The position numbers and the translations under genes are program-made. A stretch of 64,000 bases of DNA from positions 1,364,001 through 1,428,000 of the forward strand of contig NZ_CP097463.1 in the NCBI RefSeq assembly GCF_027247405.1. Direction: 5' to 3'. The DNA is from Jatrophihabitans cynanchi. Lineage in GTDB: Bacteria > Actinomycetota > Actinomycetes > Mycobacteriales > Jatrophihabitantaceae. Of the stretch, positions 771-13,326 are shown piece by piece. The notes under the pieces are model-generated. The model was not told the DNA's origin. It did no database searches and was given only the letters and a program-made list of their open reading frames with translations. Positions within the stretch are counted from its first letter, which is position 1, and the number at the start of each line of letters is the position of its first letter.

Positions 771-1032
771 AGATAGGCGCACCCGAGATCGACGTCAAGG
801 TCTCGCAGGCAAGCGGCGTTACATGGGCCACGCGGTGTGGCCAAGCTGGCCGCGTTTCGCGACCACGACGAAGCGGTGTGGAGTGACGTCCCACGCCTTC
901 GCCGACTTGAAACCCTCGGGTATGTCGGCGCTTCCGGATGAGGGTGTAGTTCCTGGCACGTCGGTGCCGGGGCGCGGATCGAGATCTTCCGATGATGGGA
1001 GTTCTCACACCGCCCACTCGGAAGACCTCGAC
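771..1032. other. intergenic stretch before the ISL3 remnant
   Basis: No convincing gene was seen here. The stretch probably includes the left end of the ISL3-type element, whose inverted repeat I could not define. Confidence 0.4.
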
Positions 1033-1743
1033 GTGCCTGACGCCACCTTCTTCGTGCGCCCTGACCTGGGCGCGTTCCGCCGTCTTGACGAGCTCGGGTT
1101 GGGGGTCGTCGGGCACTACCCTTCAGCCGGATCGGGCGGTGCTGGCATGTCGGGTCGAGCCCGGCGAGTTCGACCGGTGGTGCCGTCGGTGCGGGGGGGA
1201 AGGAGTACCGCGCGACACGGTGACCCGACGGCTGGCGCACGAGCCGTTCGGGTGGCGGCCGACCACGCTGCTGATCACGATCCGCCGCTACCGATGCGCG
1301 TCGTGCTCTCCGGTGTGGCGGCAGGACACCGCTCGCGCGGCTGAGCCGCGGGCGCGACTGTCGCGGACGGCGCTGCGGTGGGCGTTGCAGGCGATCGTCG
1401 TGCAGCACCTCACGATCGCCCGCGTCGCCGAAGCCCTCGCAGTCACCTGGAACACCCGCCAACAGCGCGGTACTCGACAAGGGCCGCCGAGTGCTGATCA
1501 ATGACCCGCGCCGCCTCGATGGCGTGGCCGTGATCGGCGTCGACGAGCAGGCCGTGCGGCACACCCGACGGGCGACAAGTACGTCACCGTGGTCCTCGAC
1601 CTCACCCCGGTGCGTGACGGGGCCGGCCCGGCACGGCTGCTGGACATGGTCGAAGTCCGCTCCGAAGGGCCGAACTGAAGAAGCTCATCACCACGATCAG
1701 TGCTCACGTCCCGGCCGAACTCACCGAACTGATCACCCTCGGG
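1033..1743 (+). pseudogene. ISL3-family transposase, 5' part, frameshifted and cut by an IS21 element
   Basis: Read across three frames, this region carries consecutive pieces of an ISL3-type transposase: an N-terminus beginning PDATFFVRPDLG at a GTG (1033), a Cys-rich zinc-binding segment (CRRCG and CASC), the HLTIARVAEAL helix-turn-helix segment, GVAVIGVDE with the first catalytic Asp, and KYVTVVLDLTPVRDG. Frame changes fall near 1130, 1475 and 1560, a stop follows EGPN near 1677, and the middle of the protein is missing before LTELITLG at the right end. The gene is therefore dead. The sequence stops at 1743, where the IS21-type element begins, and resumes at 11795 in the same orientation. 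Confidence 0.8.
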
Positions 1744-1827
1744 TGCGTGTGATCACCTGACTTGGCCCCACTTCGGCCGGGCGGTTTCTAGCGATCGTTG
1801 CAACACCGGAGGTTTCCGGGAGCTGCT

Positions 1828-3045
1828 ATGGCGGGTCGTGGTCGGCGTGGTCGCGAGCCAGATGTTGACAAGCGTGAGCGGTTTGCTGAGCTGATCGCGC
1901 AGGGGGTGAGTAACCGGCGGGCGTGCCAGCTCGTGGGCATCGCGCGCAAGACGGGGACACGCTGGCGGTTGGGGCGCACAGTCACGCTTCCCGACGGTCG
2001 CAAGCGCCACTATTCGCCCGTGGTCAACGCGCCGAGTCGAGAGATCTCGCCACGCTACCTGTACGAGGACGAGCGGGTCCGTATCGCCGACCTGCGCCGG
2101 TCCGGGCTGAGCATGCGCGCGATCGCGGCCGAGTTGGGCAGGCCGGCGTCCACGGTCAGCCGCGAGCTGCGTCGTAACCGAGACCTGGACAGTGGGCGGT
2201 ATCTGCCGTTCGCCGCGCAGCGGATGGCCGAGGCTCGCCGTACCCGGCCGGGCCGCAGCAAGCTGGTCAACGACGCCGAGCTGCGTGCGTTCGTGCAGGA
2301 TCGGCTGGAGAAGCGGTGGAGTCCGGAGCAGATCGCCCACGCGCTGCGGGAGGAGTTCCCGAACCGGCCGGACCGGCACCTGGTGCCGGAAACGATCTAT
2401 CAGGCGATCTACCGACCCGGTTGTGGTGGGCTGCGCCGGGACCTGCCGCCGGTGCTGCGCACTCGTCGACGGCGCCGTAAGCCGCATCGGCGCCCTGACC
2501 AGCGCCGGCCGACGAAGCTGGTGGATATGACGATGATCGACCAGCGGCCCGCGGAGGCGGCCGACCGGTCCGTTGCTGGGCACTGGGAAGGCGATTTGAT
2601 CACCGGTGCGCAGAACCGGTCGGCGATCGGCACGCTGGTCGAACGGTGTTCCCGGTTCACGATCTTGCTGCATCTACCCGAACGACACACCGCCGAGGCG
2701 GTTCGTGACGCGATCATCGCCGCGTTCGCGCCGCTGCCGCCGCAGCTGCGTCGGTCGTTGACGTGGGATCAGGGCAGTGAGCTGGCGTTGCACGCTGAGA
2801 TCGCTGCTGCGTTGGGTATGCCGGTGTTCTTCTGCGATCCTCACTCGCCGTGGCAGCGGCCGAGCAACGAGAACACCAACGGCCTGTTGCGTCAGTACTT
2901 CCCGAAGGGCAGCGACCTGCGCGTCCACGACGCCGTCCGGCTCGAGGAGGTCGCTGCCGAGCTGAATGACCGTCCCCGTAAGACCCTGGACTGGCACACC
3001 CCGGCCCGGCTGTTCATCGCGCCCGCAGGCGGTGTCCTAGCCTGA
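1828..3045 (+). CDS. IS30-family transposase (copy 1)
   Basis: The protein has about 405 residues. The N-terminal part carries helix-turn-helix segments; the second reads GLSMRAIAAELGRPASTVSR, characteristic of IS30 transposases. The DDE core follows: GHWEGDLITG with the first Asp, TWDQGSELALH with the second, and SPWQRPSNENTNGLLR with the Glu. The PWQR-NENTNGLLRQYFPKG string is an IS30 family signature. The ATG at 1828 is preferred over a TTG at 1798 because the protein then starts MAGRGRRGRE, just after the inverted repeat, with GGGAG upstream. All catalytic residues are present, so it should be active. Confidence 0.92.
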   Translation: MAGRGRRGREPDVDKRERFAELIAQGVSNRRACQLVGIARKTGTRWRLGRTVTLPDGRKRHYSPVVNAPSREISPRYLYEDERVRIADLRRSGLSMRAIAAELGRPASTVSRELRRNRDLDSGRYLPFAAQRMAEARRTRPGRSKLVNDAELRAFVQDRLEKRWSPEQIAHALREEFPNRPDRHLVPETIYQAIYRPGCGGLRRDLPPVLRTRRRRRKPHRRPDQRRPTKLVDMTMIDQRPAEAADRSVAGHWEGDLITGAQNRSAIGTLVERCSRFTILLHLPERHTAEAVRDAIIAAFAPLPPQLRRSLTWDQGSELALHAEIAAALGMPVFFCDPHSPWQRPSNENTNGLLRQYFPKGSDLRVHDAVRLEEVAAELNDRPRKTLDWHTPARLFIAPAGGVLA

Positions 3046-3050
3046 ACCAT

Positions 3051-3284
3051 GTGATCGAGGAGGCCGCCGCCGATGCGGAGGAGGTCCGCCTGTCGGCCGA
3101 CGACGCCGCAGAGCTGGCCGACCTGCTGCGGATCTGGCACGGCTGGCTTACCGGCGAGGACACCGACCTGCTGGCCGCCTCACTGGAGCGCATGCCCGAG
3201 GGCCCGGACAGCGTCCCTGCGCTGCAAGTGATGCTGACCCGCCTGGCGGCGCGGCTCGATCCTCGCCGCGCGGTGGACTTCTGA
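3051..3284 (+). CDS. IS30 passenger protein 1, unidentified acidic 77-residue protein (copy 1)
   Basis: A GTG start lies 5 bp after the transposase stop, so the two are probably translated from one message. The protein is small, acidic and helical-looking (EEAAADAEEVRLSADDAAEL), with LLRIWHGWLTGED in the middle. I do not recognise the family. The identical gene is in the inverted copy. High third-position GC and the tight spacing support it as a real gene. It could help transposition or serve the element in another way; nothing in the sequence decides this. Confidence 0.6.
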   Translation: MIEEAAADAEEVRLSADDAAELADLLRIWHGWLTGEDTDLLAASLERMPEGPDSVPALQVMLTRLAARLDPRRAVDF

Positions 3285-3308
3285 CCCGACGACGACGAGG
3301 GCGAACCG

Positions 3309-3977
3309 GTGCCGGACATGCGACGACGTACCCCAGAGCCACCACCGACGGGCATGCCCATCGTGGAGCACAAACCCGGGCTGGCGAAGGAGATGCTGCG
3401 CGAGTTGGCGCCTCTGCTGGCCGAGGAGGGTATCGACGTCGATGACATCGACGCGCCTGACCTGGAAACGTTGCAGGCGGCGATGAACCGTGCGGTCGAA
3501 CGGCGCAACATGCAACTGTTCAGCCCGGTCGGTGAAGCTCGCGGGTACGCGATCACCACGCTGCGGCTGGCCATCGAAGCGATCGTCGATGACGACACTC
3601 GCAGCGCCGCCGCGGTAATCGACTCCGTCCCACCCGAGTCCCCGAACAACGACAGCGCCACTGTGGCCGGCTGCATCGGCGTCGCCCTCGGGCTACTCGA
3701 CACCTGGCTGTCCGGCCACGACCTCGACGCTCCGACCGGGCTCGCCAGCCACGCTCGGCTGCCGGCCGGGCACTGGACCGGGGAACGTGCAGCCACCGAC
3801 ATCCTCACCCTCGCCGGCAAAGGCAGGGCGTTCCGCTCCCTCGACACACTGATCACCCGCCAAGGCGGGCAGCAGCTCCTCTATGGCTCAGTGCTCGCCC
3901 TCACCGCCGCAGCGCAGGCCTGGGCCCGCAACACCGACACGTCGCTGCTCGAACTCATCCACACCATCGTCCGCTGA
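3309..3977 (+). CDS. IS30 passenger protein 2, unidentified 222-residue protein (copy 1)
   Basis: The gene starts at GTG 3309 or ATG 3318, 24 bp after passenger gene 1, and ends 33 bp before the right inverted repeat. The N-terminus is Pro-rich (RRRTPEPPPTGMP), followed by an acidic helical region (EEGIDVDDIDAPDLETL) and an Ala-rich C-terminal half (VLALTAAAQAWARN). No catalytic motif or membrane segment was recognised. It is the third gene of the IS30 unit and is repeated identically in copy 2. Canonical IS30 elements carry the transposase alone, so this gene and its neighbour are extra cargo of unknown role. Confidence 0.65.
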   Translation: MPDMRRRTPEPPPTGMPIVEHKPGLAKEMLRELAPLLAEEGIDVDDIDAPDLETLQAAMNRAVERRNMQLFSPVGEARGYAITTLRLAIEAIVDDDTRSAAAVIDSVPPESPNNDSATVAGCIGVALGLLDTWLSGHDLDAPTGLASHARLPAGHWTGERAATDILTLAGKGRAFRSLDTLITRQGGQQLLYGSVLALTAAAQAWARNTDTSLLELIHTIVR

Positions 3978-4049
3978 CCAAGCACTACCATCCCGCCATC
4001 AAGTCGTCGTGTTGCGACGATGACTGGAACCCGCCCCGTCGTTCTGCAT

Positions 4050-4125
4050 GAATGTTGGCCCCACCTGGGGTGGTGATCATCCCGCCCGGGTGGTGCGGTG
4101 TGTCGTCACGAATGTTGGCCCCACC
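4050..4125. repeat. internal terminal-repeat boxes of IS21-type element A
   Basis: GAATGTTGGCCCCACC occurs twice exactly 60 bp apart (4050-4065 and 4110-4125). Together with the outer TTGGCCCCACTT at 1762-1773 these are repeated transposase-binding boxes at the left end. Inverted relatives lie at the right end near 9481-9498 and 11764-11777. Confidence 0.7.
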
Positions 4126-4171
4126 CTCGTTCAGATCGTCCCGTCCGGTTGTCGGCGGGAAGGTCGGTCAG

Positions 4172-5701
4172 GTGCGGTCGAGGGTGGAACTGTTCGAGCA
4201 GATCAGGCGCGATCATCGGCAAGAAGAGCTGTCGATCCGCGAGCTGGCCGAGAAGCATGGTGTGCACCGTCGGACGGTGCGGCAGGCGCTCGCCGCGGCG
4301 GTGCCGCCACCTCGCAAGGCCTACCCGCCGCGGCCACGGCCGGCGATCGACCCGTTCGCGACGGTGATCGACGGCTGGCTGCTCGAGGACCAGGACGCGC
4401 CGCGCAAGCAGCGTCACACGGCGCGACGGGTCTGGCAGCGGCTGGTCGCCGAACACCAGGCGACGGTGTCGGAGGTGACGGTGTCGCGTTACGTCGCCCG
4501 CCGACGGGTCGAGCTCGGCCTGGTGCAGCGGGAGGTGGCGATCCCGCAGACGCACCTTGCCGGCGCGGAGGGCGAGGTCGACTTCGGCGAGTTCTACGCG
4601 ACGATCGCCGGTGTCTGGATCAAGTGCTGGATGTTCGTGCTGCGCCTGTCGCACTCGGGCCGGGCGTTCCACGTCGCGTTCGGCACCCAGGCCCAGGAAG
4701 CGTTTCTGGAGGGGCACGTGCTGGCGTTCGAGCACTTCGGCGGCGTCCCCGGCCGTGTCCGTTACGACAACCTCAAACCCGCCGTCGTCCGCGTCCTCAA
4801 AGGACGGGACCGGACGGAGTCCGAGCGGTTCACCGCGCTGCGCAGCCACTACGGATTCGACTCGTTCTTCTGCCGCCCCGGCATCGAAGGAGCCCACGAG
4901 AAGGGGGGCGTCGAGGGCGAGATCGGCCGCTTCCGCCGACGCCACCTCGTCCCAGTCCCGAAGGTCGACTCGCTCGCGGCGTTGAACGAGCTGATCGCCG
5001 CCGGTGACTTGGTCGATGACGAGCGTGTGATCACCGGCAGGCCGGTCACTATCGAGGCCGCGTTCACCGCCGAAGCACCGCACCTGATGCCGCTGCGCGG
5101 TGAGCCGTTCGACCCCGCACGGCAGCTCGAAGCCCGTGTCGACAACCGGGCGCGGGTGTCGGTGCGGCAGTGTTTCTATTCCGTCCCTGCCCGCTACGCC
5201 GGCCGGCGGCTCCCGGTCCGACTTGCCGCCCGCACCGTTGAGATCTATGACGGATCGAAGCTGGTCGCCCGGCACGAACGCGCGGTCGGGCGTCACGTCG
5301 AAGTTCTCACCTTGGATCACTACCTGGAGGTTCTCAAGACCAAGCCCGGCGGACTCCCCGGAGCGACAGCGCTCGCGCAGGCCAAGGCCAGCCGGGCGTT
5401 CACCGCTTCGCATCAGGCCTACTGGGACGCCGCCCGCCGGGCCCGCGGCGACAGTGCTGGCACGAGGGCGTTGGTCGAGATCCTGCTCGCCCACCGCACC
5501 ATGCCCGCCGCGTCGTTGGTCGCGGCGATGGACCGCGCCGTCACGTCAGGCTGCCTCGACCCGCAGGTGGTGTTGATCGACGCCCGCCGCGACACCACCC
5601 AGGTCGCACCGGTCGTCCCGATTGGGGCGCTGGCCCGCTACGACCGACCGGCACCCACCCTCGCCGACTACGACCAGCTACTGACCGGGAGCGGAACATG
5701 A
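4172..5701 (+). CDS. istA: IS21-family transposase IstA, element A
   Basis: The protein has about 509 residues from a GTG at 4172, which gives the start VRSRVELFEQIRRDHRQ. An N-terminal helix-turn-helix (ELSIRELAEKHGVHRRTVRQ) precedes the integrase core: GEVDFGEFYATI with the first Asp, VRYDNLKPAV with the second, and EGAHEKGGVEGEIG with the Glu. The C-terminal region, starting around VSVRQCFYSVPARYAGRR, is the usual IS21 beta-domain. The stop overlaps the ATG of istB as ATGA, typical of this two-gene family. Longer readings from 4052 run into the terminal repeats and are unlikely. The gene is intact. Confidence 0.93.
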   Translation: MRSRVELFEQIRRDHRQEELSIRELAEKHGVHRRTVRQALAAAVPPPRKAYPPRPRPAIDPFATVIDGWLLEDQDAPRKQRHTARRVWQRLVAEHQATVSEVTVSRYVARRRVELGLVQREVAIPQTHLAGAEGEVDFGEFYATIAGVWIKCWMFVLRLSHSGRAFHVAFGTQAQEAFLEGHVLAFEHFGGVPGRVRYDNLKPAVVRVLKGRDRTESERFTALRSHYGFDSFFCRPGIEGAHEKGGVEGEIGRFRRRHLVPVPKVDSLAALNELIAAGDLVDDERVITGRPVTIEAAFTAEAPHLMPLRGEPFDPARQLEARVDNRARVSVRQCFYSVPARYAGRRLPVRLAARTVEIYDGSKLVARHERAVGRHVEVLTLDHYLEVLKTKPGGLPGATALAQAKASRAFTASHQAYWDAARRARGDSAGTRALVEILLAHRTMPAASLVAAMDRAVTSGCLDPQVVLIDARRDTTQVAPVVPIGALARYDRPAPTLADYDQLLTGSGT

Positions 5702-6204
5702 CCACCACGACCACCTCGAAGGCGTCGACCGTCGACGCAGCAGCACAGGCCTCCATCGGCGCAGCGGCTCGCGAGCTGCACCTGCCGACCGTCCGCACCG
5801 AATCCGCACGGCTGGCAGACATCGCCAACCGGGAACGACTGACGCACCTGGCCTACCTGGCCGAGGTCCTTGCAGCCGAAGTTGATGACCGCACCGAACG
5901 ACGCCGCACCCGACGCATCAACGACGCGAAATTCCCCCGCCTGAAACGACTCGCCGACTTCAACGTCGACGCCGTCCCCACCATCCAGGCCGCCACCCTC
6001 GCCCACCTCGCTGCCGGGCACTACATGGACGCCGGCGAACCAGTCGTGCTACTCGGCCACTCCGGCACCGGCAAGTCCCACCTGCTCATCGGCCTCGGCC
6101 TCGCCGCCTGCGAACAAGGCCGCCGAGTCCGCTACGTCACCACCGCACAGCTCGTCAACGAACTCGTCGAAGCCGCCGACGAACGCGTCCTCTCACGAGT
6201 GGTC
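5698..6204 (+). pseudogene. istB: IstB helper ATPase, element A, 5' part (interrupted)
   Basis: The first 169 codons of an IstB-type AAA+ ATPase are present, including the P-loop GHSGTGKSHLLIGLGLAA and the segment RRVRYVTTAQLVNELVEA. After ERVLSRVV the frame runs into the left end of a second IS21-type element (6205). The coding sequence resumes at 8889 with GRHGRLDLLCLDELGYVQ, after the duplicated AGTGGTC. The gene is split and cannot give full-length helper unless the inner element is excised precisely. Confidence 0.88.
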
Positions 6205-6349
6205 TGTCCGCGTACGACCTCATGTCCCTAGCTGGGTACGACCTCATGTCCTGAGCTCTCGGCGCGTCGAGTCCTGTTCGCCGTGAGTGTTGATCACCCT
6301 CCGATCTGTCAGCTGCCAGGCAGATCAGACCGGAGGGAGACCACCTCGC

Positions 6350-7762
6350 ATGATCCTCGATGCGGAGCAATGGATGGACCTACGACGTTTCCGCGCCCTG
6401 CATGCGGCTGGGGTGACGATCGCGGAGATCGCCCGGGAGACCGGGCATGACTGGAAGACGGTCAAGAAGTACCTGGCCGATGACGCGCCGGTGGTGCCGC
6501 CGGCGGCGCCGACGCGGGCGGGCACGCAGCCGCGGGTGATCACCCCGTTCGTGGGGTTGATCGATTCGTGGCTGCGGGCCGATATCACGATCAAGGGCAC
6601 GGTGGTCCATGAGCGGCTGGTCGCCGATCACGGGTTCACCGGCAGCTACCAGCGGGTCAAGATGCACCTGGCCGAGGCCCGGCCGCGGATCGAGGCCGAA
6701 CTGGTCGAGGACGATGAGAACCCGCTGGCCGGGTTGCATCGCCGCTTCGAGGTGATCGCCGGCGCGCAGGCGCAGGTCGACTGGGGCGACGAGGGCGCGA
6801 TCTTGGCGCACGTCGGGATCGGCAAGGTGTACTCGTTCCACTGCACGCTGTCCTACTCGCGCGACCCGTTCTGCTGCTATGTGACCAGCCAGGACATGGC
6901 CACGTTCTGGGACTGCCACCGGCGTGCGTTCGCGCACTTCGGTGGGGTGCCGGGCTCGATCGTCTATGACCGCACCAAGACGGTGATCAAGCGGCATGTC
7001 GCGCCACGGGCGGCGGTGCCGCTGCACCAGGAAGCGGCCGCGTTCGCCGAGCACTACGGGTTCGTCATCGACGTGCTGGCCGCCTACCGACCAACCGGAA
7101 AGGGCCGGGTCGAACGCCAGGTGCTGATCGGGCGTGAGCACGTGCTGGCCGCTCGCAGCTTCGAGTCGATCGCCGAGCTGGACGCGGCGTTCGGCGACTG
7201 GCTGCCGATCCGCCGCGCCCAGATCCACCGCACCCACGGTGAGGTGATCGCGGTGCGCGCCGAACGGGACCGGGCCGCGCTGCTGCCCTTGCCGGACCAG
7301 CCCTATCTGGTCACCGACCGGCACCTGCGTCGGGTCGGGAAGGACTGCCTGATCAGCTTCGAGGCCAGCCTCTACTCGGTGCCCGCGGTCAAGATCAGGG
7401 CCGGGCAGCGGGTCGAAGTCCGCGTCGGCGCCGAGCTGGTCGCGATCCACTCCCTGCCCACCGACACCGGCGTCGGCGAGCTGCTGGCCGTGCATCCCCG
7501 CGCGGCCAACCGAGGCAGCTGGGTCGTCGATGAAGCGCACTGGAACGGGCTGCCCGACGGACACACCCGCGCCACCGTCGTTGAGACCACCGCCCCCGAA
7601 GGTCAGCACGCCCTGCCCTCGGCACCACGCGGGTTCGGTGAACCGAACCCGCTCGCCGCGCTGCTGAACGCCAACACCACCGCCGCCGTCCCGGTCGCTC
7701 GGCGGCCGCTGACCGACTACCAAGCCATCGCCGCTGCCGCGACCACCTTCGACAGGAGCTAG
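6350..7762 (+). CDS. istA: IS21-family transposase IstA, element B
   Basis: About 470 residues from ATG 6350, preceded by CGGAGGGAG. The N-terminal HTH reads AAGVTIAEIARETGHDWKTV. The integrase core has QAQVDWGDEG (first Asp), GSIVYDRTKTVIKR (second Asp) and GKGRVERQVL (Glu). The C-terminal part CLISFEASLYSVPAVKIRAGQ is the IS21 beta-domain. It is only distantly similar to IstA of element A, so the two elements belong to different IS21 subgroups. Confidence 0.92.
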   Translation: MILDAEQWMDLRRFRALHAAGVTIAEIARETGHDWKTVKKYLADDAPVVPPAAPTRAGTQPRVITPFVGLIDSWLRADITIKGTVVHERLVADHGFTGSYQRVKMHLAEARPRIEAELVEDDENPLAGLHRRFEVIAGAQAQVDWGDEGAILAHVGIGKVYSFHCTLSYSRDPFCCYVTSQDMATFWDCHRRAFAHFGGVPGSIVYDRTKTVIKRHVAPRAAVPLHQEAAAFAEHYGFVIDVLAAYRPTGKGRVERQVLIGREHVLAARSFESIAELDAAFGDWLPIRRAQIHRTHGEVIAVRAERDRAALLPLPDQPYLVTDRHLRRVGKDCLISFEASLYSVPAVKIRAGQRVEVRVGAELVAIHSLPTDTGVGELLAVHPRAANRGSWVVDEAHWNGLPDGHTRATVVETTAPEGQHALPSAPRGFGEPNPLAALLNANTTAAVPVARRPLTDYQAIAAAATTFDRS

Positions 7763-7767
7763 AAATC

Positions 7768-8049
7768 ATGACCACCATCGGCAACCGCACCCGCATCACG
7801 CTGACCGCCCAGACCGTGGAAAAGATCGCCGAGCTGCTCGAGCGCTGCGACGAGTTCATCCGCCACGCCGACCCAGCCGTGCGCGCCGAACTGTGCACTC
7901 ATCTCGGTCCACACGCGAGCGGCTACGACCTCAACCTGTTCATCGACGACCTCGGCTTCACCGCCGCGGAACTGCGCCACCAGCTCGCCACCGCCGCCGA
8001 GATCGCGGTCGAACACCAGCACGCCCGATCGACAGGACAGCCGCGATGA
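7768..8049 (+). CDS. small conserved-position protein between istA and istB, element B
   Basis: A 93-codon gene begins 5 bp after istA and overlaps the istB start (ATGA at 8046-8049). It starts MTTIGNRTRITLTAQTVEKI and is mainly helical with several acidic residues. The tight coupling to both neighbours argues that it is translated. I do not recognise a domain. Standard IS21 elements have only istA and istB, so this is a third gene with unknown function, perhaps a transposition accessory factor. Confidence 0.7.
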   Translation: MTTIGNRTRITLTAQTVEKIAELLERCDEFIRHADPAVRAELCTHLGPHASGYDLNLFIDDLGFTAAELRHQLATAAEIAVEHQHARSTGQPR

Positions 8050-8816
8050 GTGAACTGGTCAGTGCCCGCATCCGCGACCACGCCGGCAAGCTCGGCCTCA
8101 ATCACCTGATCGAAACCGTCGACCAGCTCACCACCCGCGCCGAGACCGAGCAGCTGAGCTACCTCGAGTTCCTCGACCAAGTCCTGGAAGAAGAACTCGG
8201 GCTGCGTGAGTCCCGCCGGTTCCGCAACGCCTTGAAGCTGTCCGGGCTGCCGCACCACAAGACCCTCGAACAGTTCGACTTCGCCTTCCAACCCGACCTC
8301 GACCCGCGCAAAATCAAAGACCTGGCCACCCTGGAGTTCATCGACCGGCGCAGCAACATCACCCTGCTCGGACCACCCGGCGTCGGCAAGACGATGATCG
8401 CCGTCGCGCTCGCCGTCGCCGCCTGCCAAGCCGGCTACTCGATCTACTTCACCAGCCTCGACGACCTGGTCCGCCGGCTCCGAGCCGCCGAGGCCACCGG
8501 CCGGTTCAACCGGCAACTGGCTGCCTACCTCCGACCCGCCGTCCTCGTCGTCGACGAGGTCGGCTACCTGCCGCTGGACCGCGCCGAAGCCAACATGGTC
8601 TTCCAACTCGTCTCCCGCCGCTACGAACGCGGCTCCATGATCATCACCAGCAACAAGAGCTTCGCCGAATGGGGCTCGGTCCTGGGAGACGACGTCCTCG
8701 CCACCGCCATCCTCGACCGGCTCCTGCACCACTGCGACGTCATCAGCATCAACGGCCCCAGCTACCGCCTCAAAGACCGACTCGCCCTGGTCACAGGAGG
8801 TGAAGCGATGACATGA
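8046..8816 (+). CDS. istB: IstB helper ATPase, element B
   Basis: 256 residues of DnaC/IstB-type AAA+ ATPase. Walker A is LLGPPGVGKTMIAVALAVAA, Walker B is AVLVVDEVGYLPL, and SMIITSNKSFAEWGSVLGDD is the IstB signature near the C-terminus. The start ATG overlaps the stop of the 93-codon gene. It delivers ATP-dependent target choice for the IstA transposase. Intact. Confidence 0.93.
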   Translation: MSELVSARIRDHAGKLGLNHLIETVDQLTTRAETEQLSYLEFLDQVLEEELGLRESRRFRNALKLSGLPHHKTLEQFDFAFQPDLDPRKIKDLATLEFIDRRSNITLLGPPGVGKTMIAVALAVAACQAGYSIYFTSLDDLVRRLRAAEATGRFNRQLAAYLRPAVLVVDEVGYLPLDRAEANMVFQLVSRRYERGSMIITSNKSFAEWGSVLGDDVLATAILDRLLHHCDVISINGPSYRLKDRLALVTGGEAMT

Positions 8817-8888
8817 TCACACCGCGCCGACCTCAGGACGTGAGGTCGTACGCACCTCGCCAGATGAGGTCGTACGCCGACAGTGGTC

Positions 8889-9182
8889 GGCCGCCACGGA
8901 CGCCTCGACCTACTCTGCCTCGACGAACTCGGCTACGTCCAGATCGATCCACGCGGCGCGGAGCTGCTATTCCAGATCATCACCGAACGCGAAGAGCGAG
9001 CCTCCATCGCGATCGCCACCAACCTGCCCTTCTCCGAGTGGGGCAGCGTGTTCCCCGATCCGAGGCTCGTCGCCGCTATCGTCGACCGCGTCACCTTCAA
9101 CGCCCACATCCTCGAAACCGGCACCCAGTCCTACCGGCTGCGCACCAGCAAGAACGGCCGGCGCCGCGCGTCGAACCGCTGA
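8889..9182 (+). pseudogene. istB: IstB helper ATPase, element A, 3' part
   Basis: This continues the istB broken at 6204. It begins GRHGRLDLLCLDELGYVQID (Walker B) and includes ASIAIATNLPFSEWGSVFPD and a C-terminus RLRTSKNGRRRASNR. The frame joins the 5' part through the AGTGGTC duplication. It has no start of its own. Confidence 0.86.
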
Positions 9183-9199
9183 CCACGGCAGACCGAGGG

Positions 9200-9412
9200 T
9201 CAGGACAGCGCCATCATTTTCTGAATCGCCTGCCGCGAAACCCCAAGTTCCCGGGCGATGTCCGCCTGCGACAGGCCACCGTCGAGAAGCTCCTGCATCA
9301 GGTCACGACGCTCAACCGCCAGCGCGCGAGCCAATCTGGTGTGCTCAATGGCTTCGGCCCGCACCTCCTTGATCCGCTGAAACGTCTGGTCACGGCTCGA
9401 GTTTCTTGTCAT
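9200..9412 (-). CDS. small HTH DNA-binding protein carried by IS21-type element A
   Basis: About 70 residues from ATG 9412. The C-terminal half, LLDGGLSQADIARELGVSRQ, is a clear helix-turn-helix; the N-terminal half is a charged helix. It faces istB convergently and ends 17 bp from it. Upstream lie two 17-bp palindromes (9425-9462) that look like its own operator, so it may be an autoregulated repressor of the element or a short antidote-like regulator without a visible partner. The alternative ATG at 9433 lies inside the first palindrome and is less likely. Confidence 0.7.
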   Translation of the reverse strand: MTRNSSRDQTFQRIKEVRAEAIEHTRLARALAVERRDLMQELLDGGLSQADIARELGVSRQAIQKMMALS

Positions 9413-9424
9413 GCAGCAAATCAT

Positions 9425-9461
9425 GACAACCATCGGTTGTCGCTGTCAACCTATGGTTGTC
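9425..9461. promoter_or_regulatory. tandem palindromic operator candidate before the small HTH gene
   Basis: GACAACCATCGGTTGTC (9425-9441) and GTCAACCTATGGTTGTC (9445-9461) are two near-perfect 17-bp palindromes 20 bp apart, directly upstream of the leftward HTH gene. The helical-phase spacing suggests cooperative binding of the encoded regulator; this is inference. Confidence 0.6.
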
Positions 9462-9560
9462 AGTAAGCACGCAGCCGCACCGGTTGGGGCCAGAATTCAT
9501 GAGGCGGGTTCCAGTCATCGTCGCAACACGACGACTTGATGGCGGGATGGTAGTGCTTGG

Positions 9561-10229
9561 TCAGCGGACGATGGTGTGGATGAGTTCGAGCAGCGACGTG
9601 TCGGTGTTGCGGGCCCAGGCCTGCGCTGCGGCGGTGAGGGCGAGCACTGAGCCATAGAGGAGCTGCTGCCCGCCTTGGCGGGTGATCAGTGTGTCGAGGG
9701 AGCGGAACGCCCTGCCTTTGCCGGCGAGGGTGAGGATGTCGGTGGCTGCACGTTCCCCGGTCCAGTGCCCGGCCGGCAGCCGAGCGTGGCTGGCGAGCCC
9801 GGTCGGAGCGTCGAGGTCGTGGCCGGACAGCCAGGTGTCGAGTAGCCCGAGGGCGACGCCGATGCAGCCGGCCACAGTGGCGCTGTCGTTGTTCGGGGAC
9901 TCGGGTGGGACGGAGTCGATTACCGCGGCGGCGCTGCGAGTGTCGTCATCGACGATCGCTTCGATGGCCAGCCGCAGCGTGGTGATCGCGTACCCGCGAG
10001 CTTCACCGACCGGGCTGAACAGTTGCATGTTGCGCCGTTCGACCGCACGGTTCATCGCCGCCTGCAACGTTTCCAGGTCAGGCGCGTCGATGTCATCGAC
10101 GTCGATACCCTCCTCGGCCAGCAGAGGCGCCAACTCGCGCAGCATCTCCTTCGCCAGCCCGGGTTTGTGCTCCACGATGGGCATGCCCGTCGGTGGTGGC
10201 TCTGGGGTACGTCGTCGCATGTCCGGCAC
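9561..10229 (-). CDS. IS30 passenger protein 2, unidentified (copy 2)
   Basis: Encodes a protein identical to the 222-residue passenger protein at 3309-3977, from GTG 10229. No function is recognised; see that entry for the visible features. Identity of both copies implies recent duplication. Confidence 0.65.
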   Translation of the reverse strand: MPDMRRRTPEPPPTGMPIVEHKPGLAKEMLRELAPLLAEEGIDVDDIDAPDLETLQAAMNRAVERRNMQLFSPVGEARGYAITTLRLAIEAIVDDDTRSAAAVIDSVPPESPNNDSATVAGCIGVALGLLDTWLSGHDLDAPTGLASHARLPAGHWTGERAATDILTLAGKGRAFRSLDTLITRQGGQQLLYGSVLALTAAAQAWARNTDTSLLELIHTIVR

Positions 10230-10253
10230 CGGTTCGCCCTCGTCGTCGTCGGG

Positions 10254-10487
10254 TCAGAAGTCCACCGCGCGGCGAGGATCGAGCCGCGCCGCCAGGCGGG
10301 TCAGCATCACTTGCAGCGCAGGGACGCTGTCCGGGCCCTCGGGCATGCGCTCCAGTGAGGCGGCCAGCAGGTCGGTGTCCTCGCCGGTAAGCCAGCCGTG
10401 CCAGATCCGCAGCAGGTCGGCCAGCTCTGCGGCGTCGTCGGCCGACAGGCGGACCTCCTCCGCATCGGCGGCGGCCTCCTCGATCAC
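10254..10487 (-). CDS. IS30 passenger protein 1, unidentified (copy 2)
   Basis: Encodes a protein identical to the 77-residue acidic passenger protein at 3051-3284, from GTG 10487, lying between the transposase and passenger gene 2. Confidence 0.6.
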   Translation of the reverse strand: MIEEAAADAEEVRLSADDAAELADLLRIWHGWLTGEDTDLLAASLERMPEGPDSVPALQVMLTRLAARLDPRRAVDF

Positions 10488-10492
10488 ATGGT

Positions 10493-11710
10493 TCAGGCTA
10501 GGACACCGCCTGCGGGCGCGATGAACAGCCGGGCCGGGGTGTGCCAGTCCAGGGTCTTACGGGGACGGTCATTCAGCTCGGCAGCGACCTCCTCGAGCCG
10601 GACGGCGTCGTGGACGCGCAGGTCGCTGCCCTTCGGGAAGTACTGACGCAACAGGCCGTTGGTGTTCTCGTTGCTCGGCCGCTGCCACGGCGAGTGAGGA
10701 TCGCAGAAGAACACCGGCATACCCAACGCAGCAGCGATCTCAGCGTGCAACGCCAGCTCACTGCCCTGATCCCACGTCAACGACCGACGCAGCTGCGGCG
10801 GCAGCGGCGCGAACGCGGCGATGATCGCGTCACGAACCGCCTCGGCGGTGTGTCGTTCGGGTAGATGCAGCAAGATCGTGAACCGGGAACACCGTTCGAC
10901 CAGCGTGCCGATCGCCGACCGGTTCTGCGCACCGGTGATCAAATCGCCTTCCCAGTGCCCAGCAACGGACCGGTCGGCCGCCTCCGCGGGCCGCTGGTCG
11001 ATCATCGTCATATCCACCAGCTTCGTCGGCCGGCGCTGGTCAGGGCGCCGATGCGGCTTACGGCGCCGTCGACGAGTGCGCAGCACCGGCGGCAGGTCCC
11101 GGCGCAGCCCACCACAACCGGGTCGGTAGATCGCCTGATAGATCGTTTCCGGCACCAGGTGCCGGTCCGGCCGGTTCGGGAACTCCTCCCGCAGCGCGTG
11201 GGCGATCTGCTCCGGACTCCACCGCTTCTCCAGCCGATCCTGCACGAACGCACGCAGCTCGGCGTCGTTGACCAGCTTGCTGCGGCCCGGCCGGGTACGG
11301 CGAGCCTCGGCCATCCGCTGCGCGGCGAACGGCAGATACCGCCCACTGTCCAGGTCTCGGTTACGACGCAGCTCGCGGCTGACCGTGGACGCCGGCCTGC
11401 CCAACTCGGCCGCGATCGCGCGCATGCTCAGCCCGGACCGGCGCAGGTCGGCGATACGGACCCGCTCGTCCTCGTACAGGTAGCGTGGCGAGATCTCTCG
11501 ACTCGGCGCGTTGACCACGGGCGAATAGTGGCGCTTGCGACCGTCGGGAAGCGTGACTGTGCGCCCCAACCGCCAGCGTGTCCCCGTCTTGCGCGCGATG
11601 CCCACGAGCTGGCACGCCCGCCGGTTACTCACCCCCTGCGCGATCAGCTCAGCAAACCGCTCACGCTTGTCAACATCTGGCTCGCGACCACGCCGACCAC
11701 GACCCGCCAT
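10493..11710 (-). CDS. IS30-family transposase (copy 2)
   Basis: Encodes a transposase identical to that at 1828-3045, with the same DDE core (GHWEGDLI, TWDQGSE, NENTNGLLR) and the same preferred ATG, here at 11710. Intact and probably active. Confidence 0.92.
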   Translation of the reverse strand: MAGRGRRGREPDVDKRERFAELIAQGVSNRRACQLVGIARKTGTRWRLGRTVTLPDGRKRHYSPVVNAPSREISPRYLYEDERVRIADLRRSGLSMRAIAAELGRPASTVSRELRRNRDLDSGRYLPFAAQRMAEARRTRPGRSKLVNDAELRAFVQDRLEKRWSPEQIAHALREEFPNRPDRHLVPETIYQAIYRPGCGGLRRDLPPVLRTRRRRRKPHRRPDQRRPTKLVDMTMIDQRPAEAADRSVAGHWEGDLITGAQNRSAIGTLVERCSRFTILLHLPERHTAEAVRDAIIAAFAPLPPQLRRSLTWDQGSELALHAEIAAALGMPVFFCDPHSPWQRPSNENTNGLLRQYFPKGSDLRVHDAVRLEEVAAELNDRPRKTLDWHTPARLFIAPAGGVLA

Positions 11711-11794
11711 AGCAGCTCCCGGAAACCTCCGGTGTTGCAACGATCGCTAGAAACCGCCTGACGACAGTGGGGCCAGATCGCTTGACGAAACGCA

Positions 11795-12076
11795 CTCGGG
11801 CGCACCCTGCACCGACGAGCCGGCGACGTGCTGGCCTACTTCGACTGGCCCGGCACCAGACCCGCCCGACCGAAGCCATCAACGGCCGCCTGAAACACCT
11901 GCGCGGATCCGCACTCGGCTTCCGCAACCTCACCCACTACCTAGCAAGATCTCTGCTCGACGTCGGTGGGTTCAGATCGCGATTACACCCTTACTCCGGA
12001 CGAGCCCCAAAGCGAGCCGGTTCACTTCACGACTTCACGGCCAAGAAGGTGCCTGCACGGCGTAATGAACAGGTCA
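11795..12076 (+). pseudogene. ISL3-family transposase, 3' part
   Basis: The C-terminal piece of the ISL3-type transposase resumes after the IS21-type element: GRTLHRRAGDVLAYFDWPGT, then with a frame change RPTEAINGRLKHLRGSALG and FRNLTHYLARSLLDVGGFR. The family motif NGRLKHLRGSALGFRN identifies it. The left piece ends LTELITLG, which joins naturally to GRTLHRR through the CTCGGG duplication. The right end of this element abuts the amidohydrolase stop at 12082 and was not defined. Confidence 0.8.
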
Positions 12077-12081
12077 ACGCG

Positions 12082-13326
12082 CTAGGCTAGCTGCAGCTCT
12101 TCGCGCGACAGGCCAACGCTCTCGGTCACGTCGGCGAGGCATGCCATATCGACGTTAGCGAACGCTTTCTCAAACACGCCGCACAGCACGCGATGTGCTT
12201 GCTCTTCAGGTAGACCGGCCAGTAAGCGACGCAGGCACTCGGCACGCTTGAGAGGCACTCCGCTAAGCCCCTCACCCGCAGTGGGCCAGGCACCCTCGCC
12301 ATGCGAAATATCACCACCCCAAAGAACATTGGAGATACCCGGATTCACGAAGTCTTCCGCCACTTGGTAGGAAGAGTGGACCGCATAGCAATGCCGGTTC
12401 CAGTATTCGTGTGCGCTGTCCAGCCCGGCAGCCCGGCGACCCGCCGGCGAGGAATTCAGCTCACCCTTTTCGATTCTGTCGAGAATTGGAGTGATCCAGC
12501 TGATTCCAAGCTCGGCGAAGGCAAGGTTAAGCCGCGGGAATCTGTCGAAAACGCCTCCGATAATAAACGACCACAATGGTCGGTGCGCGTACCAGCCCAC
12601 TTCCATTAAGAAGATGGACCTCTCCTCGTACTCGTTGTCACCATTGTAAGTTGGTGCGCCCCGTCCAGGGTGGACGCACACCGTCAACCCTAAGTCGGCG
12701 CAACGTTCCCAAAGAATGTCGTACCGCCGGTGGTGGTATAGCGGTAGGTAGTACTCCAGTGGCAAAACGACGCCCGTCCGAAGGCCATCATCGTACGCCC
12801 GTTCTATTTCTTCGACGCACCAGTTCGGGTCGTCAAGCGTGCCGAGCAGGGTCAACCCCAAGAGTCGCTTCGGATCGACCGAGCAGAACTCGGCGAGCCA
12901 ACGGTTGTATGCCCGGGCACCCGCGCGAACAAGCGAGGGTGGATAGCCTTCAGTTCCGATCATGCCTTCCACAGCATGTGCAAGCCCGGCCCCGAAGGGA
13001 GGATCGTTTGTGTTTTGATCGTCCGGGAAAAGGACATCACACACGATCCCGGCAAGATTCATTTCGCTGACGCGTAACTTCGGATCCCAGGCAATCGACG
13101 ATCCCCTCGCCGGATCGAATCCAGCCGTCCCGATGAACTTGTCATTGAAATCGCTAGGCAGGTACGACTCGGCTCGCAGGGGCGACCATCGCCACGCATG
13201 CTTCGTTAGGTAGCGATCGAAATCAGCATGTAGACGCTTCTCCAAATAGCCGCGATACTCGGCTGTTGGAAGTCCGGAATGGCCGTCGCCGGACATCACA
13301 GGGATCCGGCTAGCAATTGCAGTCAT
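12082..13326 (-). CDS. amidohydrolase-2 family protein (ACMSD-like metal hydrolase or decarboxylase)
   Basis: About 414 residues of the ACMSD-related amidohydrolase-2 barrel: an N-terminal DGH metal motif (residues 14-16), CVHPGRGAP in the middle, FAELGISWITPILDRIE, and VLWGGDISHGEGAWP near the end with the probable catalytic Asp. Members cleave C-N or C-C bonds, often decarboxylating ring-derived acids. ATG 13326 is preferred because GGAG stands 7 nt upstream; ATG 13338 and a longer reading to 13419 are possible. A LacI-type operator candidate lies about 110 bp upstream. Local GC is only about 53-55 percent against about 70 in later genes, a sign of separate origin. Confidence 0.83.
   Translation of the reverse strand: MTAIASRIPVMSGDGHSGLPTAEYRGYLEKRLHADFDRYLTKHAWRWSPLRAESYLPSDFNDKFIGTAGFDPARGSSIAWDPKLRVSEMNLAGIVCDVLFPDDQNTNDPPFGAGLAHAVEGMIGTEGYPPSLVRAGARAYNRWLAEFCSVDPKRLLGLTLLGTLDDPNWCVEEIERAYDDGLRTGVVLPLEYYLPLYHHRRYDILWERCADLGLTVCVHPGRGAPTYNGDNEYEERSIFLMEVGWYAHRPLWSFIIGGVFDRFPRLNLAFAELGISWITPILDRIEKGELNSSPAGRRAAGLDSAHEYWNRHCYAVHSSYQVAEDFVNPGISNVLWGGDISHGEGAWPTAGEGLSGVPLKRAECLRRLLAGLPEEQAHRVLCGVFEKAFANVDMACLADVTESVGLSREELQLA

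Follow-up and report, generated by a model that had tools for sequence, protein, structure and literature searches.

In the genome of Jatrophihabitans cynanchi, we observed two copies of one IS30-family insertion sequence (IS) placed as mirror images inside the terminal repeats of an IS21-family element, IS21-A, and we think it probable that this IS30 prefers sites flanked by GGCCC, so that the terminal repeats of IS21 elements become a hot spot for its insertion. The locus lies in a 64,000-nucleotide (nt) stretch of contig NZ_CP097463.1 (positions 1,364,001 to 1,428,000 of the forward strand; assembly GCF_027247405.1), referred to here as the window. It is a stack in which the remnant of an ISL3-family transposase gene is interrupted by IS21-A, and IS21-A by a second IS21 element (IS21-B) and the two IS30 copies. 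The nesting of the four elements is in itself ordinary. The mirror placement of the two IS30s, judged from its position and from independent cases elsewhere, is unlikely to be chance. A preliminary description of the window had treated the IS30 copies as unrelated, overlooking their mirror-image positions in the terminal repeats of A as well as the two extra open reading frames (ORFs) that the IS30 carries, here called p77 and p222.

1744-11794, plus strand: IS21-A, interrupted three times, with a 6-bp duplication CTCGGG; 2,849 bp without its three inserts.
1744-1779, plus strand: left tip of A, comprising the outer terminal repeat TTGGCCCCAC and then the CCG duplication at 1777-1779.
1780-4035, plus strand: IS30-family copy 1, transposase facing into A, duplication CCG.
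9503-11758, minus strand: IS30-family copy 2, base-identical to copy 1, transposase facing into A, duplication TGA.
11759-11794, plus strand: right tip of A, TGA duplication at 11759-11761 followed by outer terminal repeat GTGGGGCCAG.

Each IS30 starts exactly 36 bp inside a tip of A (33 bp plus the 3-bp duplication), and both point inward from a site between the outer and inner GGCCCC repeats. The cores of these multiple terminal repeats lie at positions 21, 55 and 115 of A at one end and at 2800 and 2824 at the other; all five GGCCCC/GGGGCC hexamers of A fall within its ends as such cores, and their 34- and 24-bp spacings are identical in close relatives. The distance from the IS30 site to the outer repeat is 7 nt at both ends, and that to the inner repeat is 18 nt on the left and 8 nt on the right. 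A mirror position of this kind would arise by coincidence in 1 case in about 5,700. The copies measure 2,256 bp each, are inverted relative to each other, and were found independently by a repeat finder within a 2,296-nt inverted pair. All four insertion boundaries, the tips and the duplications were checked by script on the window sequence.

Identical copies in similar surroundings could also reflect a single IS30 insertion that was copied to the other end of A by gene conversion or recombination between its tips, which both begin TGCG and have TGCGT...TGGCCCCACT in common. The tips are alike over the outer repeat only, however; the inner flanks have different sequences and lie at different distances from the inner repeat, and the duplications, read inward from each tip, are CCG and TCA. 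Because the duplications (CCG and TGA on the plus strand) and inner flanks differ, we regard these as two separate insertions, and copying as highly improbable. The genome holds a third copy, making three at 100% identity, and its own GTG duplication (genome positions 509518-511773; locus L003, 1498-3753) indicates that the element moves by ordinary transposition. This copy is flanked by TTGGGCC and TTGGGACC, and an ORF adjoining it encodes a putative rve-type transposase. Three identical 2,256-bp copies might equally be suspected of misleading the assembly, but each of them is flanked by a matching 3-bp duplication of its own, the genome is a single contig (4.5 Mb, 99.67% complete), and both junctions in A agree with natural empty sites in relatives; an artefact of this kind is extremely improbable.

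Related IS30s occupy the same inter-repeat spacers in other A-type IS21 elements, and it is for this reason that we do not ascribe the placement to chance. In locus L007, from a metagenome-derived actinobacterial genome, an IS30 that carries p222 and whose transposase is 66% identical to that of the window lies in the left end of an IS21 (IstA 52% identical to that of A), between two TGGCCCCAC repeats. On the Rhodococcus DK17 and DK176 plasmids, an IS30 that is 57% identical and has no p222 interrupts an IS21 (IstA 72.5% identical) at its right end; its TGC duplication is at the base homologous to the TGA of the window, with the IS30 in the opposite orientation. The DK-type IS21 is present uninterrupted, at 94.5% identity, in R. 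jostii RHA1, which provides a natural empty site, and the IS21 of locus L137 (88% IstA identity) does the same for both window insertions. On a plasmid of Rhodococcus sp. USK10 (L115, 3858-5239), a single IS30 stands in place of the IS21 body. Over the stretch they share, it has 98.6% identity to the IS30 of DK176. On its left it adjoins the left tip of the IS21, which extends as far as TCA, and on its right the right tip, which starts at TGC; the host duplication GCCCAG is intact on both sides.

We counted four independent events, two in the window (left and right), one in L007 and one in Rhodococcus, taking DK17/DK176 and USK10 as one because the right-end event may be shared. IS30s have inserted recurrently and independently at the same place in the ends of another transposon. 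The inter-repeat spacers comprise 46 of the 2,849 bp of A, and four of four events would fall there by chance with a probability of about 7e-8. Random nesting in an IS-rich spot, with no target preference and with the mirror positions a coincidence, is very unlikely when set against these independent insertions (L007, DK17, USK10), the common 36-bp offset and the mirrored orientation. What speaks for it is the rarity of loading: an istA survey of 387 genomes of the order found 28 A-type loci in 20 genomes, and an IS30 occurs in the surveyed stretch, which in some cases ends at a contig end, in 0 of the 27 loci other than A. In 394 genomes of the class, the pattern of a GGCCCC repeat and then the tip of this IS30 was matched by the window only. 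Among plasmid records with this IS30 group, 11 of 17 were read (H12, H15, H16, H17, H19 and H25 were left out), and three of the 11 (H10, H11 and H13, representing two distinct cases) have the IS30 in IS21 ends. Insertion of IS30 into IS21 ends was unreported in the literature searched, which comprised titles and abstract openings and lay outside most subscription journals.

To map the target sites of this IS30 group, we examined 80 related loci, of which 58 gave a terminal-repeat pair and 22 none; some of the mapped pairs may be wrong, and a 59th mapped row is the third copy of the source genome itself. A 3-bp duplication accompanied 40 of the 58 (39 once a duplicate was dropped), and the 18 without it, like the 22 loci that gave no pair, were excluded from the motif counts. 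Of the 78 half-sites of these relatives, 32 have GGCCC or GGGCC at the expected place, compared with 4.6% for random positions; 14 of the 39 sites have it in both halves, compared with 0.24%. With three plasmid sites added, the motif is present in 40 of 84 halves, 34 of which have it at 4-8 nt from the duplicated bases. The corresponding gaps in the window are 7 for the left insertion, on its outer side, and 7 and 8 for the right. The looser motif GGNCC is present between -18 and -5 in 9 of 12 halves from the two window sites, the third copy, L006, L007 and DK (7.9% expected), with L007 having it in neither half. Counting GGCCC by gap outperformed a weight matrix because the distance of the motif varies.

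Half of the target sites of the relatives are also palindromic. The longest complementary run is at least 9 in 51% of the 39 sites, against 2.8% for mismatched halves, and the mean folding energy of the 59-nt empty sites is -33.4, against -21.1 at random positions in the same loci. Insertion into hairpins with GGCCC stems is likely to be a common targeting rule of this IS30 group. IS30s positioned in the middle of such terminator-like hairpins were seen in L010, L014, L029, L030, L064, L122 and others, in Streptomyces, Kitasatospora, Lentzea, Actinoplanes and Nocardiopsis hosts. Direct hairpin targeting is ruled out as the explanation of the window sites, which fold poorly. As these sites form no hairpins, the motif without the stem may suffice, and the IS30 clade of the window may need the one but not the other.

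Several observations weigh against a GGCCC-driven hot spot. The motif was first noticed at the window sites and then tested on the relatives, so the test was not blind. The three IS30 sites of the source genome fold at -16.3, -14.1 and -16.5, more weakly than most random positions, and a weight matrix built from the 39 sites of the relatives ranks the two sites in A, by summed score, at 191-752 of about 2,800. The L007 insertion, with GGCCCC 16-17 nt away on both sides and a 5-bp duplication, fits the spacing rule poorly. Loading is rare not only among the surveyed A-type loci but also when viewed from the IS30 side, where only 1 of 80 related loci from genomes adjoins an IS21.

There is precedent for elements that use the ends of other elements as targets. 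IS4321 and IS5075, of the IS1111 group, are said to have been described by Partridge and Hall in 2003 as repeatedly entering the terminal inverted repeats of Tn21-family transposons. The window IS30 likewise enters the terminal repeats of another transposon repeatedly, but those elements belong to another class with RNA-guided targeting, whereas the transposase here is of the DDE IS30 type and not IS1111/IS110. Its site is also looser, with several positions used within the inter-repeat spacer. Another case is IS231A, an IS4-family element of other hosts that inserts in the ends of Tn4430. Passages of PMC9333248 describe IS30 of E. coli as inserting into near-palindromic hot spots and beside its own inverted repeats, and as generating deletions. 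The window IS30 resembles it as a member of the same copy-out-paste-in family, as set out in those passages, but prefers the GGCCCC-marked terminal-repeat region of an unrelated IS21 family, duplicates 3 bp rather than 2 and carries extra ORFs. The parts of PMC1525189 that treat ISs targeting repetitive extragenic palindromic (REP) elements have them inserting into palindromic hairpins, at the axis of symmetry, and duplicating 3 bp. Relatives of the window IS30 similarly target hairpins; ISPsy8 and the other REP-targeting elements hit REP elements, and not the terminator-like hairpins or IS21 ends entered by the IS30 group described here.

1798-3045, plus strand: IS30 transposase ORF, 415 amino acids; NF033563 (transpos_IS30), 288.9 bits against a cut-off of 80.
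3051-3284, plus strand: extra ORF p77; no Pfam, NCBIfam or PHROGs match.
3309-3977, plus strand: extra ORF p222; no family-model match.

The IS30 assignment rests on the DDE-type transposase, imperfect terminal repeats of about 27 bp (GGCGGTTTCTAGCGATCGTTGCAACAC / GGCGGGTTCCAGTCATCGTCGCAACAC in copy 1) and the 3-bp duplications CCG, TGA and GTG. The usual IS30 layout is a single transposase ORF, although this is not a strict requirement, and the window IS30 departs from it in that p77 and p222 both lie inside the terminal repeats. A weak relative of p77 is present in L007 on the opposite strand. p222 is found inside the terminal repeats of three IS30s, those of the window, L006 and L007, the latter two proteins being 65% and 62% identical to that of the window. 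Relatives of p222 without this IS30 are found on plasmids of Streptomyces, Tsukamurella, Xylanimonas, Frondihabitans and others; on the 100-kb plasmid pTpau01 of Tsukamurella paurometabola (L090), tblastn located three places with p222 relatives. Besides the source genome, 6 of 394 class genomes have p222 matches, for which only the distance to this IS30 was examined, and there were none in 396 phylum genomes, 24 family genomes or viral contigs. The predicted structure, made from three sequences, is poor (mean predicted local distance difference test score 49.9). p222 may be carried as cargo or may serve as an accessory factor.

4172-5701, plus strand: istA of IS21-A; NF033546 (transpos_IS21), 242.6 bits against a cut-off of 160.
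5698-6204, plus strand: istB of IS21-A, 5' part, ending with AGTGGTC (6198-6204).
6205-8881, plus strand: IS21-B, 2,677 bp, intact, with a 7-bp duplication AGTGGTC.
6350-7762, plus strand: istA of IS21-B; IS21 transposase model, 227 bits against a cut-off of 160.
7768-8049, plus strand: 93-amino-acid ORF of IS21-B between istA and istB; no family match.
8046-8816, plus strand: istB of IS21-B.
8882-9182, plus strand: istB of IS21-A, 3' part, starting with AGTGGTC (8882-8888).
9200-9412, minus strand: small ORF of A with a helix-turn-helix match (phrog_686, 2.6e-10), lying between istB and the right tip.
1033-1743, plus strand: ISL3-family transposase remnant, left part, degenerate, including CTCGGG (1738-1743); left edge as in the preliminary description.
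11795-12076, plus strand: ISL3 remnant, right part, starting with CTCGGG (11795-11800); right edge provisional.

The families, boundaries, duplications and nested layout given in the preliminary description were all correct. Our script recovered CTCGGG on both sides of A within the ISL3 gene, AGTGGTC on either side of B within A, and the CCG/CCG and TGA/TGA pairs around the two IS30 copies. A and B both have istA and istB, duplications within the 4-8 bp of the IS21 family (6 and 7 bp) and TG-type ends, those of B being TGTC on the left and GTCG, one base off, on the right. NCBIfam recognises the halves of the A istB in two separate ORFs, and removal of B restores the reading frame, as had been stated. 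In the related IS21s of L137 and L139, too, some 0.5 kb of additional sequence separates istB from the right end, where A has its helix-turn-helix ORF. The rejoining of the ISL3 frame held in part: it is continuous across the A junction, but the gene has further frameshifts and its middle is absent. NCBIfam NF033550 (transpos_ISL3) matches only at model positions 3-106 (residues 54-158 of the ORF at window positions 992-1504; E = 1.7e-20) and 339-369 (E = 9.3e-07) of 370, with both matches below the curated whole-protein cut-off. ISL3-family elements have terminal repeats and an 8-bp duplication. Neither was convincingly found around 640-1100 and 11950-12500, and the outer edges of the remnant are for that reason provisional.

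The order of events is resolved only partly. B and the IS30s entered an A that already existed, as the earlier order had it, with ISL3 first, A second and B and the IS30s last, but nothing places their entry after the jump of A into ISL3. The sequence fits any order of entry of B and the two IS30s, and loading either before or after the arrival of A. Because the outermost 36 bp of both tips are intact, a loaded A could have moved if helped in trans. A composite transposon, with the IS30s around the body of A, or the transfer of a loaded A as a whole into ISL3, with B and the IS30s predating the jump, would account for these intact tips and for the intact CTCGGG duplication. The same right junction is moreover present in DK17/DK176 and USK10 at different sites, with IS21 duplications ATGCGTG and GCCCAG. 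Such block movement is nonetheless unlikely: A, like B and the ISL3 remnant, is present once in the source genome, B destroys istB so that proteins would be required in trans, and a target preference can produce the same right junction twice.

Returning to a GGCCC preference, we propose the following account. This IS30 group inserts a few bases from GGCCC/GGGCC, preferably where the duplicated 3 bp have such a motif on either side, and these motifs are usually the stems of terminator-like hairpins, as the counts among the relatives show statistically. The transposase may read GGCCC directly, and A-type IS21 ends, with GGCCCC cores at a fixed spacing at both ends, would mimic the target. The IS30 lands between the outer and inner repeat and leaves the outermost IS21 tip intact, as is seen in A, and on a general understanding of IS21 it may cut that tip off from the remainder of the IstA-binding region. 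Once both ends had been hit, recombination or IS30-driven deletion between them could eliminate the body of the IS21, so that a single IS30 remained between its two tips. This is the arrangement seen in USK10, which may have been reached by two-ended insertion followed by recombination or, alternatively, by an IS30-driven deletion from the right-end copy to the left-end site.

These elements may be read as a natural decay series of IS21, from empty (RHA1 and L137) through one end occupied (DK17 and L007) and both ends occupied (the window) to loss of the body (USK10). A further step, which we consider doubtful, would be that an IS30 clade, some members with accessory p222, uses IS21 terminal repeats as a regular landing pad and that the outer tips remain usable, with IS21 transposase acting in trans to move the tip-IS30-tip unit, as in USK10. 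If true, this would be a transposon wearing the ends of another transposon. The finding would offer a testable account of transposon pile-up, in which the transposase-binding repeats of one family are the target motif of another.

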